This document shows, piece after piece, positions 50,702 through 63,246 of a stretch of 64,000 nt of DNA. The position numbers and the translations under genes were made by a program. The stretch lies in assembly GCA_007131295.1 (NCBI GenBank), contig SLQW01000032.1, forward strand, positions 1 to 64,000, read 5' to 3'. Under the pieces are notes generated by a model. The model searched no databases and was not told the origin of the DNA. It saw only the letters and a list, made by a program, of their open reading frames with translations. The stretch comes from Pseudomonadales bacterium (GTDB lineage: Bacteria; Pseudomonadota; Gammaproteobacteria; Pseudomonadales; Azotimanducaceae). Numbering within the stretch: the first letter of the stretch is position 1; every line of letters starts with the position of its first letter.

Positions 50702-50778
50702 GGAGCGGTAGTTCAGCTGGTTAGAATACCGGCCTGTCACGCCGGGGGTCGCGGGTTCGAGTCCCGTCCGCTCCGCCA
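50702..50778 (+). tRNA. tRNA-Asp (anticodon GTC)
   Basis: This 77-nt sequence has acceptor stem GGAGCGG/CCGCTCC, D-arm AGTTCAGCTGGTTAGAATACC, anticodon GTC in CCTGTCACG, T-loop GGTTCGAGTCC and an encoded CCA. It lies 15 bp after tRNA-Val in one operon. Confidence 0.97.
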
Positions 50779-50815
50779 CTTCTAACCGTTTTCCAAGATT
50801 AGACGATTCTCAGCC

Positions 50816-50831
50816 CGGCGTGAGCACGCCG
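50816..50831 (+). terminator. Hairpin downstream of tRNA-Asp
   Basis: CGGCGTG-AG-CACGCCG, a 7-bp perfect stem with a tight loop 38 bp after the tRNA. Possible terminator of the tRNA operon; no T-tract. Confidence 0.4.
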
Positions 50832-50840
50832 CGAGTCGCG

Positions 50841-50882
50841 GTGCGTGGCACCCAGTGCGTGGCACCCAGTGCGTGGCACCCA
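50841..50882. repeat. Three 14-bp tandem repeats downstream of tRNA-Asp
   Basis: GTGCGTGGCACCCA occurs three times in exact tandem (50841, 50855, 50869). Each unit contains the small palindrome GTGC-GTG-GCAC. Confidence 0.95.
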
Positions 50883-50885
50883 AGC

Positions 50886-50922
50886 CGAGTCCCGGCCGCC
50901 CCGCCACTTCTAACCGATTCCT
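50886..50922 (+). repeat. Second copy of the tRNA-Asp 3' end
   Basis: This segment matches 32 of 37 bases of 50758-50794, which spans the T-arm, acceptor 3' strand, CCA and 16 bp beyond tRNA-Asp. The copies are 128 bp apart with the 14-bp triple repeat in between. No integrase gene is nearby. Confidence 0.85.
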
Positions 50923-57230: not shown

Positions 57231-57517
57231 GGACACCCAGAAATCGCCGCCCAGTTAAGGACACCCAAGTTTTGGTCTCCCGCGTTCGAGTCGGGGGATG
57301 AATCGTGGACACCCAGACATTCAAAGCTCCGTCCGACCGTATCCTGCAAAGGTAGAGCCAGCGCTGCTGGATGTCCTATTGAGTCGTCGAGTGATACCGA
57401 TGACTCCTGGATGTCCGTTGTCGCGCCCCCCCCCTGGGTGGCTCCACGATATCTGGGTGTCCGGTTTCGGCTCTCCGGTTTCGGCTCGCTGCTTCCCGTC
57501 GCGAATTTTGGGTGTCC
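57231..57517. repeat. Cluster of seven GGACACCC/GGGTGTCC motifs
   Basis: GGACACCC occurs at 57231, 57259 and 57307. The complement-direction forms GGATGTCC (57369, 57409) and GGGTGTCC (57455, 57510) follow. Flanks are partly shared (CCCAAGTTTT versus AATTTTGGG). A direct 14-bp repeat (CGGTTTCGGCTCTC/CGGTTTCGGCTCGC, about 57462-57489) and a run of nine C (57426-57434) lie between. The mirror-like order suggests a decayed mobile element or a regulator-binding array. Confidence 0.8.
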
Positions 57518-61213: not shown

Positions 61214-62221
61214 TCAGACGTCGTAATAGCGACGATACCAAGCCACGAAGCGCTCGACGCCCTCTTCCACCTCAACCTCCGGTTTGTAGCCAACCGCCTC
61301 GAACAGCTCCGAGACATCGGCTTCGGTATCCGGTACGTCGCCGGGCTGTAGCGGCAGCATCGCCATCTCGGCCTTGCGGTTGAGACAGCGCTCGAGCACT
61401 TGAATATATCGCAACAGCGTCACCCGCGCCTCACTACCGATGTTGTAAAGGCGATACGGAGCAAGACTGCTCGCCGGGTCCGGATCGTCGCCATCCCAGC
61501 CCGGATCCGGCGCTGCAACGCGGTCGAGCGTGCGAACCACACCTTCGACGATGTCGTCGATGTAAGTGAAGCTGCGGCTGTGGTTGCCGTGGTTGAATAC
61601 CTTGATCGGTTCCCCCGCCAGGATCGCGCGCGTGAACAGAAACAGCGCCATGTCTGGCCTGCCCCACGGTCCGTAGACTGTGAAGAAACGCAGCCCCGTA
61701 CTCGGGATGCCATACAGGTGAGCATAGCTGTGGGCCATCATTTCATTGGCCTTCTTCGTCGCAGCGTAGAGGGTCAATGGATGCTCGGTGGACTGGTGTT
61801 CCGAAAACGGCATACGGGTGTTGGCACCGTAAACCGAACTGGTGGAGGCAAATACGAGATGCTCTACCTCATGCTGCCGGCAGCCCTCGATCACATGCAG
61901 GAATCCGGTGAGGTTACTGCTCACGTAAACATGTGGATTCTCGGCGGCGTAGCGCACGCCAGCCTGAGCAGCGAGATGGACCACACGCTGCGGCCGGTGC
62001 GTCGCGAACAGCGTTTCCATCGCCTCACGGTCTGCCAGGTCAGCCGCAACATGGGCGTAGCCCGAAGCACATTCGAGCCGAGCAAGACGGGCGCGCTTCA
62101 GAGAGACATCGTAGTAGTCGTTCAGGTTATCGAGGCCGATAACCTCGTCGCCACGGTCGAGCAGATACTGCGCTACGTGACTGCCGATGAAGCCGGCGGT
62201 ACCGGTGACCAGGACCTTCAT
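61214..62221 (-). CDS. UDP-glucuronate 4-epimerase
   Basis: This 335-residue SDR enzyme has NAD motif [33 protein letters not shown] (the GAE/CapI signature), [15 protein letters not shown], catalytic Ser-Tyr-Lys in FASTSSVYG and YAATKKANE, and [17 protein letters not shown]. It converts UDP-glucuronate to UDP-galacturonate for polysaccharide. It lies downstream of tRNA-Pro on the same strand, across the 81-bp repeats. Confidence 0.94.
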
Positions 62222-62269
62222 CGCAGCTCCATTTCTTCTCTAACGAACGCGCCGGCAAATGGCGCCACG

Positions 62270-62462
62270 CGATGACCAGAGTCGCGGGCCAGTGCTCGTT
62301 TGGTCGGGGCGGCCGGATTCGAACGGTTCCGCCCGCGGCGACGACCACCGGGGTCGCAAGACCCCTGGGTCAGTCCTCGTTTGGTCGGGGCGGCCGGATT
62401 CGAACGGTTCCGCCCACGGCGACGACCACCGGGGTCGCAAGACCCCTGGGTCAGTCCTCGTT
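62270..62462 (-). repeat. Two 81-bp tandem repeats derived from the 3' half of tRNA-Pro
   Basis: Units at 62301-62381 and 62382-62462 differ at one base. Each has 24 bases identical to the tRNA-Pro 3' end including CCA, then a 14-base insert, then 11 more tRNA bases, then a 32-base spacer with the hairpin GGGGTC-GCAA-GACCCC. A degenerate third spacer remains at 62270-62300. The layout is reminiscent of the rtT repeats after E. coli tyrT. Confidence 0.95.
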
Positions 62463-62539
62463 TGGTCGGGGCGGCCGGATTCGAACCGACGACCACCACA
62501 CCCCCAGTGTGGTGCGCTACCAGGCTGCGCTACGCCCCG
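62463..62539 (-). tRNA. tRNA-Pro (anticodon GGG)
   Basis: This 77-nt sequence on the minus strand has acceptor stem CGGGGCG/CGCCCCG, D-arm AGCGCAGCCTGGTAGCGC, anticodon GGG in CTGGGGGT, T-arm GGTTCGAATCC and an encoded CCA. It is followed on the same strand by two modified copies of its own 3' half. Confidence 0.97.
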
Positions 62540-62736
62540 TGAGGGCGCGGATTGTACCGGATGTCATGAGACGCGGGAACCAAAGCAACGCGCAGACGGT
62601 GACGCGCATCAGGACATGCACCGTGCGTCGCCCAAAAGCCACCGCCCGCGTCATGCGGGTCCTGATGGACAGGCACTTCACGCGCTACACTGCGCTCGAC
62701 TCCTATGAGTCTCTGTCAGTACGGGAAAGCACGCGC

Positions 62737-63246
62737 ATGGACCGTTGGTACGCCGTCTTCACCAAGCCTCGCCAAGAGCACGTTGCCGAAGAACACCTGG
62801 AGCGGCAGGCCTTCACGGTCTGGTTGCCCAGGCTGGAGCACAGCGTTCGGCACCGAGGCCGCTGGGTAGACCGGATTGAGCCGTTGTTTCCGCGCTACCT
62901 TTTCTTGCAGGCAGACGCAGCCGATCAGGATCTATCTACGATTCGCTCTACGCGTGGCGTGACCGGCCTGGTGCGTCAGGGCATCGAGCCAGCAGTCGTT
63001 CCAGAGCAGGTCATCAGCTTTCTACGCGAGACCGCCGACCCCGAGTCTGGACTGCACCACATCGGCAGCCCGGCCCGTTTCAAGCGTGGTGATCGCGTGC
63101 GCGTCATCGAAGGACCCTTTGAGGGTCTTGAAGGCGTCCTGCTCAAGGAGAAGGGGGAAGAGCGTGTCCTTGTCCTACTCGCGATCCTCGGAGGCGAGCG
63201 CAACGTCGCACTCTCCACGCAGCAACTGATGCGCGCCAGAGGCTGA
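62737..63246 (+). CDS. rfaH: RfaH-like transcription antitermination factor (NusG paralogue)
   Basis: This 169-residue protein has NusG N-terminal domain RWYAVFTKPRQEHVAEEHLERQ, LFPRYLFLQADAA, TRGVTGLVRQG, and KOW domain FKRGDRVRVIEGPFEGLEGVLL. RfaH-type factors help RNA polymerase through long polysaccharide operons. It fits the adjoining locus. The ATG at 62737 has GGGAAAG upstream; the long frame from 62272 is only the tRNA repeats read as protein. I did not find an ops site in this window. Confidence 0.9.
   Translation: MDRWYAVFTKPRQEHVAEEHLERQAFTVWLPRLEHSVRHRGRWVDRIEPLFPRYLFLQADAADQDLSTIRSTRGVTGLVRQGIEPAVVPEQVISFLRETADPESGLHHIGSPARFKRGDRVRVIEGPFEGLEGVLLKEKGEERVLVLLAILGGERNVALSTQQLMRARG

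Follow-up and report, generated by a model that had tools for sequence, protein, structure and literature searches.

Directly behind an intact tRNA-Pro(GGG) gene of a Pseudomonadales bacterium (family Azotimanducaceae), two near-identical repeats were noticed that each contain a modified copy of the tRNA 3' half, which raises the question of what these repeats are, how they arose and whether the cell makes use of them. The window, i.e. the whole 64,000-nt stretch of DNA that was analysed, belongs to the genome designated G000. The parent gene was identified on the reverse strand at 62463-62539 (ARAGORN; Rfam RF00005, 62.2 bits) and is followed on the same strand by unit 1 (62382-62462) and unit 2 (62301-62381). 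Counted from the base after the tRNA's CCA to the next CCA, each unit measures 81 nt, and the two differ at a single position (80/81 identical; Tandem Repeats Finder score of the array 381). In each unit a 16-nt spacer is followed by a GGGGTC-TTGC-GACCCC hairpin (62431-62446 in unit 1, 62350-62365 in unit 2), by the tRNA-derived GGTGGTCGTCG (62420-62430 and 62339-62349), by 14 nt and finally by GTTCGAATCCGGCCGCCCCGACCA (62382-62405 and 62301-62324). GGTGGTCGTCG covers the end of the anticodon stem, the variable loop and T-stem nt 49-52, and GTTCGAATCCGGCCGCCCCGACCA comprises the last 24 nt of tRNA-Pro from the T-loop to CCA. The 35 tRNA bases per unit are thus split by a 14-nt palindromic module, which reads CCGTGGGCGGAACC in unit 1 (62406-62419) and CCGCGGGCGGAACC in unit 2 (62325-62338); in unit 1, the module and the bases preceding it form the hairpin CGCC-GTG-GGCG. 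The sequence-only reading that first drew attention to the locus had correctly described the two units and their identity, the 35 bases of the tRNA 3' half with CCA and the perfect hairpin in the units. It had also recognised the 14-base insert but placed it between the T-arm and the anticodon stem, while it actually sits inside the 5' strand of the T-stem, between nt 52 and 53.

A decayed third unit, likewise anticipated in that reading, was recognised by eye from 62300 downward (62230-62300, reverse strand). It consists of a stretch beginning with AACGAGCACTGGCCC, followed by GGTCATCGCG, a palindromic stretch and GTTCG, lacks the 3' acceptor part and extends to the start of a gene for an NAD-dependent epimerase at 62221. 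The 24 bases GTTCGAATCC...CCA are identical in tRNA-Pro and in the units, as would be the case for an attR scar, in which the copy agrees with the tRNA from a crossover point onward, and the distance from the tRNA to this shared end in unit 1 is 57 nt. Since the copied end scored 48 and the maximum in 1200 tRNA/tail swaps was 25, its presence so close to the gene is not due to chance. None of the copies forms a complete cloverleaf, and ARAGORN as well as Rfam called the parent tRNA-Pro alone.

The open reading frames together with a Pfam match established that the repeats separate the tRNA from the epimerase gene, as had been proposed. From tRNA-Pro to the epimerase gene neither a terminator-like nor a promoter-like site was detected, so that read-through is allowed. 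The opposite strand carries a NusG/RfaH-like gene (62737-63246, +) immediately upstream of tRNA-Pro, with a MerR gene beyond it, and the NusG/RfaH-like gene and the polysaccharide-type epimerase gene may mark an RfaH-controlled operon. This polysaccharide gene context varies among relatives: in G001, G002 and G005 another gene comes next, and G027 and G178 differ too. The missing terminator-like site would suit a functional RNA similar to E. coli rtT, in which CCA-ended units released from the pre-tRNA exert a regulatory role (for example in amino-acid starvation) and the hairpin is selected as RNA, an explanation to which we assign roughly one chance in four. However, the 318-nt transcript comprising the tRNA and the units folded no better than shuffled sequences (z = -0.95). 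That processed 80-nt RNAs would be released between the units, as the sequence-only reading had suggested, is a possibility and not a finding.

To determine how widespread the units are, related genomes were searched and their tRNA flanks read. Every one of the six genomes that represent the genus (G000-G005) carries units behind the same tRNA-Pro, three of 79 nt in G005, one in G002 and one diverged unit each in G001, G003 and G004. A pattern requiring two tRNA-Pro 3' ends at a distance of 40-70 nt matched eight of 207 genomes of the family, and G014, G020, G173, G089 and G095 joined them once the flanks had been inspected in about 100 genomes of the family. In total, 16 genomes from seven genera of the family carry units, ten of them in six genera other than its own. 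The expectation that 81-bp-type units would recur in relatives, on which the sequence-only reading had made its case depend, was therefore borne out in the whole genus and beyond. Among 392 genomes drawn evenly across the order, the tandem pattern was obtained in G000 and G027 only and in none outside the family; most genomes of the family are devoid of the feature, and outside the genus its occurrence is hence sporadic. A broader pattern applied to contigs was discarded, because most of its matches turned out to be normal class I tRNAs or 3' fragments without an insert, and L110, L140 and L144 alone fitted the insert layout. For the functional RNA, the retention of units in the whole genus is a favorable sign and their absence from most of the family an unfavorable one. 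In a draft assembly, tandem repeats this short could in principle result from misassembly, but as the six congeners and several other genera carry their own versions in independent assemblies, the existence of the units is not an artefact of this kind, for which we see practically no room.

Each genome has one to three units, and the tRNA-Pro units elsewhere measure 68, 70, 71, 79, 97, 99 or 100 nt (overall about 68-122 nt). They are near-identical inside one genome and differ from genome to genome, which indicates concerted turnover. These lengths also bear on coding potential. Open frames cross the tRNA-Pro units on both strands, and with 81 = 3 x 27 the repeat might encode an arginine-rich peptide like E. 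coli Tpr. This was rejected as extremely improbable: most of the unit lengths elsewhere (68-100 nt) are not divisible by three, the frames gave no Pfam match, and a sequence derived from tRNA would be expected to contain frames of this kind.

An attR site is usually recognised by a copied 3' end that follows an intact tRNA (PMC9897764), and in Dehalococcoides 20-bp repeats of the ssrA 3' end accumulate through insertion in the T-loop (PMC3146451). The units might accordingly be scars, i.e. several accreted attR 3' ends left by lost mobile elements that were once inserted at the T-loop. The border of the insert at the T-loop fits this explanation, as does a 52-nt plain tRNA 3' fragment on another contig of G013. 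Against it, the tRNA-Pro units follow each other at unit length with no island between them and are homogeneous within a genome. Phage_integrase (PF00589) was present in all 16 genomes searched and in none of them on the contig with tRNA-Pro, and matches to plasmid and phage collections were confined to the tRNA-Pro part. There is no sign of a live integration site here, and we regard an origin as scars as rather unlikely.

The insert itself was compared between lineages. In tRNA-Pro copies the gap from GGYC to GTTC is 17-19 nt versus 4 nt in the tRNA, giving a net insert of 13-15 nt at the same T-stem place in all cases except G200, which carries a plain copy with no insert behind a 17-nt spacer, and G095, which carries several longer inserts. 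It takes the form of a mini-hairpin: GCCGA-TTC-TCGGC in G027, GGCGC-TTC-GCGCC in G020, GCACA-GGG-TGTGC in G178, GCCAC-TGC-GTGGC in G014 and GCCGG-AGGG-CCGGC in G005, next to the one given above for the window. The uninterrupted stem averaged 4.3 bp over ten lineages, compared with 2.9 bp in composition-preserving shuffles (p = 0.0005); the stems are short, 4 bp in G000 and 3 bp in G001, G003 and G004. In an alignment whose sole anchor was how far each position lies from the T-loop, 69% of the cells were paired versus 47% after shuffling, and 13 both-sided changes were counted. Covariation reached 0.446 compared with 0.118 in shuffles, none of 500 shuffles was as high, and shifting the partners reduced the values. 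The insert is thereby shown to be palindromic at a fixed place, with compensatory changes between species. Such changes are what a functional RNA would show, but covariation alone does not establish selection on RNA, since a separate palindrome placed in each lineage would give the same signal.

As the copies lack a normal T-stem, it was considered whether the inserted hairpin acts as an insulator that ruins the T-arm of the copy and thereby prevents it from capturing the real tRNA's 5' half. Constrained folding with nearest-neighbour energies showed that the insert favours the correct acceptor stem over the chimeric one in three of seven genomes and has the opposite effect in the other four. 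This idea was dropped and is given very little credence.

The architecture of copied 3' halves extends beyond tRNA-Pro. The tails of 36 tRNAs of G000 were read against the same swap background (maximum 25 in 1200 swaps), and extra 3' ends above it were obtained for Pro (48), Met (32), Asp (32) and Gly (28). In G005 and G087 extra ends occur behind tRNA-Pro only, and in G209, a fully sequenced member of the family, there were none among 31 tRNAs read. On the forward strand of the window, tRNA-Asp(GUC) (50702-50778, ARAGORN) is followed by 128 nt of spacer and copied 3' half (50779-50906), and the start of the spacer, CTTCTAACCG, reappears at 50907. At the T-stem place this copy holds three identical 14-nt palindromic modules GTGCGTGGCACCCA (50841-50882; Tandem Repeats Finder 3.0 copies, 100%), ahead of the tRNA-derived T-loop-to-CCA piece AGCCGAGTCCCGGCCGCCCCGCCA (50883-50906). 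The module hairpin is GTGC-GTG-GCAC in the window; the tRNA-Asp copy of G001 has one module, TTGC-GCG-GCAA, and tRNA-Asp of G003 none.

Inserts at the same place in G000 amount to about 3 x 14 nt in the Asp and Cys copies and to 14 nt in the Gly copy. In the latter, CCGCATGCGGAGCA is inserted exactly ahead of GTTCGATTCC; in the tRNA-Cys copy CCGCATGCGGAGCA, CCGCATGCGGGCCA and CCGTATGCGGAGCA precede GTTCAAT. The tRNA-Cys copies of G001 and G002 carry two 14-mers (CCGTATGCGGACCA or CCGCATGCGGAGCA, then GCCTGCGAGGCCCG). The same insertion place is therefore used in tRNA-Pro of several genera and in Asp, Gly and Cys of the own genus, with net lengths of 13-15, 14, 28, 41 and 42 nt over all cases, and these multiples of 14 nt are left without explanation by integration scars. 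Behind tRNA-Met of G000 (L284, C127) a tandem unit roughly 125 nt long ends in the last 16 bases of the tRNA and has no simple 14-nt insert. In this unit TGGGCCCCAGG could pair with CCTGCCGGGCCCA, and it is closer to E. coli rtT than to the 14-nt type.

Exact matches to the 14-mer CCGYATGCGGRSCA occur at four sites across the entire G000 genome, all of them in the tRNA-Cys and tRNA-Gly copies, and reversed CCGYATGCGGRSCA, used as control, had none. Eight exact sites were found in G002 and six in G004, mostly away from tRNAs. In these two genomes CCGYATGCGGRSCA also lies in intergenic palindromic repeats, several of which are preceded by a sequence ending in TGTAGGCGAG, and the second stretch behind tRNA-Pro of G002 resembles such a repeat. 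The recurrence of related modules at different tRNAs and in intergenic repeats of congeners suggests a pool of short palindromes spreading within this genus, from which the module seems to be drawn, with the T-stem of copied 3' halves as a preferred place. Another 14-nt sequence, TCCGGTTTCGGCTC, is present in two exact copies in the window (57460-57487), away from tRNAs.

Several further irregularities around tRNA genes were recorded. In G087 (L062), the genuine tRNA-Pro is directly preceded by a full-length tRNA-Pro-like sequence whose anticodon is GGG; its D-arm is altered and longer, and its T-stem contains an insert of 14-15 nt. A truncated sequence of this kind is present in G089 (L232). 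In G000 (C3, L292) an intact 5' half of tRNA-Gly(GCC) occupies the interval from tRNA-Glu to the genuine tRNA-Gly gene, upstream of the latter, as a mirror of the tails. Upstream of tRNA-Pro in G046 (L010, 1581-1891) there are tandem, partly N-masked 61-bp repeats resembling the tRNA-Pro 5' half. Three 199-nt direct repeats follow directly behind tRNA-Pro in G039 (L019, 1587-2183); they are rtT-like, and every repeat includes CCTGCCGTCCC from the end of the tRNA as well as a complementary segment. An array split over two contigs of G043 (L031, L032) contains no fewer than 13 complete tRNA-Met (CAT) genes spaced 126-127 bp apart; it was rejected as a case of tail repeats, the matches being ordinary full tRNA genes. 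Finally, two tRNA-Ser genes of G000 (L303, L307) are followed by a terminator-like hairpin and then by an inverted T-arm-like stretch (GGATTCGAACCCC...GTTCGACGAATC).

We consider it an even call that the units constitute a tRNA-tail satellite, maintained mainly at the DNA level and under weak selection, that tolerates or attracts short palindromic modules in the T-stem. In a first step the tRNA from its middle to just beyond CCA would have been duplicated downstream, for which the plain copy in G200 is a possible example. A palindromic module of 13-15 nt would then have entered the 5' strand of the T-stem of the copy, singly or in tandem, as the comparison between genomes suggests. Slippage or unequal crossing-over would subsequently gain or lose whole units and keep them alike within a genome; such an exchange is possible because the parent tRNA and every unit share the same 24-base end, and any exchange between 3' ends would leave an intact tRNA. 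The units are probably co-transcribed as a 3' trailer of the tRNA and cut during maturation. Several points count against the satellite: that all six members of the genus have retained a unit is more than one would readily expect of a neutral repeat; selection on RNA instead of palindrome turnover could lie behind the compensatory changes in the mini-hairpin; we know of no enzyme or mechanism that places a module into a T-stem; the inserts of G095 and the tRNA-Met unit deviate from the simple module; and the stems in G000, G001, G003 and G004 are short. The main rival is a possible functional trailer RNA.

A bolder explanation, which we hold to be improbable, is a dedicated process in the family that adds 14-nt hairpin modules, single or tandem, to copied 3' halves of several isoacceptors at the border of T-stem and T-loop, close to the cut site of tRNA-targeting recombinases; the arrays would be new micro-cassettes or structured trailer RNAs.

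The repeats make new questions accessible, namely whether tails arise from recombination at tRNA ends, how the T-stem receives a palindrome of nearly fixed length and whether the trailer of the pre-tRNA has a role. They also present a hazard for annotation, as tails that are translated show up as spurious basic ORFs and a copied 3' half may be mistaken for an integration scar. To our knowledge, tRNA-tail repeats have been studied mainly at one site, E. coli tyrT. In the literature accessible to us, no hairpin module of about 14 nt at a fixed place in copied tRNA 3' halves across isoacceptors was found, and an older description is possible. What is already known are the rtT tails made of tRNA ends, integration scars at the T-loop (PMC9897764, PMC3146451) and short palindromic repeats (PMC3733652).

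The closest of these is RtT/rttR of E. coli tyrTV, where tandem units likewise stand directly behind a tRNA, each with a tRNA 3' end and CCA, and the parent tRNA is left intact. E. coli rtT differs in its 178-bp units with about 18 terminal tRNA bases and a 10-bp closing stem (GGGGAAGGAT/ATCCTTCCCC), and the 14-nt module is absent from it. The comparison with rtT drawn in the sequence-only reading, including the difference it named, is upheld by the covariance model RF00391: it matched the positive control, E. coli K-12, four times, whereas five loci tested here gave no match, nor did the window at the gathering threshold or 62200-62560 up to E = 5, so that membership of the RtT family was rejected. 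A weak match suggests that the rtT units (L192) keep CTTCGAccAAGGTTCGA before the T-loop, followed by a long insert (shuffles were as good in 27/1000 and 1/1000). RtT-family RNAs were detected on Northern blots in A. pleuropneumoniae (PMC4986893), and upregulation of RtT in the cold was reported for Thioalkalivibrio (PMC8092127). These RNAs elsewhere, together with the retention in the whole genus, add weight to a functional trailer RNA, as does the match with E. coli rtT in place and layout.

Integron attC sites were dismissed by reading, as the R' box GTTRRRY does not occur in most copies, which mostly have GTTCGAA or GTTCAAA, GTTAAAT being confined to G027. With attR and the accretion arrays of Dehalococcoides (PMC3146451) the units share repeated 3' ends behind the gene and a border at the T-loop, but they differ in their short spacing free of islands, the contig free of an integrase, the homogenised units and the palindromic modules. 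Like REP or GTAG repeats (PMC3733652), the modules are short and GC-rich palindromes whose loops are small and whose stems show compensatory changes, and the same 14-mer lies within the intergenic palindromic repeats of G002 and G004. The GTAG tag is absent from the Pro, Asp, Cys and Gly copies of G000 (Pro has GTCG), and where found in copies GTAG belongs to the tRNA's own sequence. Unlike REP or GTAG repeats, the exact 14-mer is limited to tRNA tails in G000, the stems have 3-5 bp and the modules occur in tandem multiples of 14 nt. Taken together, the units are real and conserved and represent a variant of the E. coli-type tRNA-tail repeats that is apparently undescribed. They add an independent second lineage, in which several tRNA species are involved, the insertion place is fixed and the 14-nt hairpin is modular.
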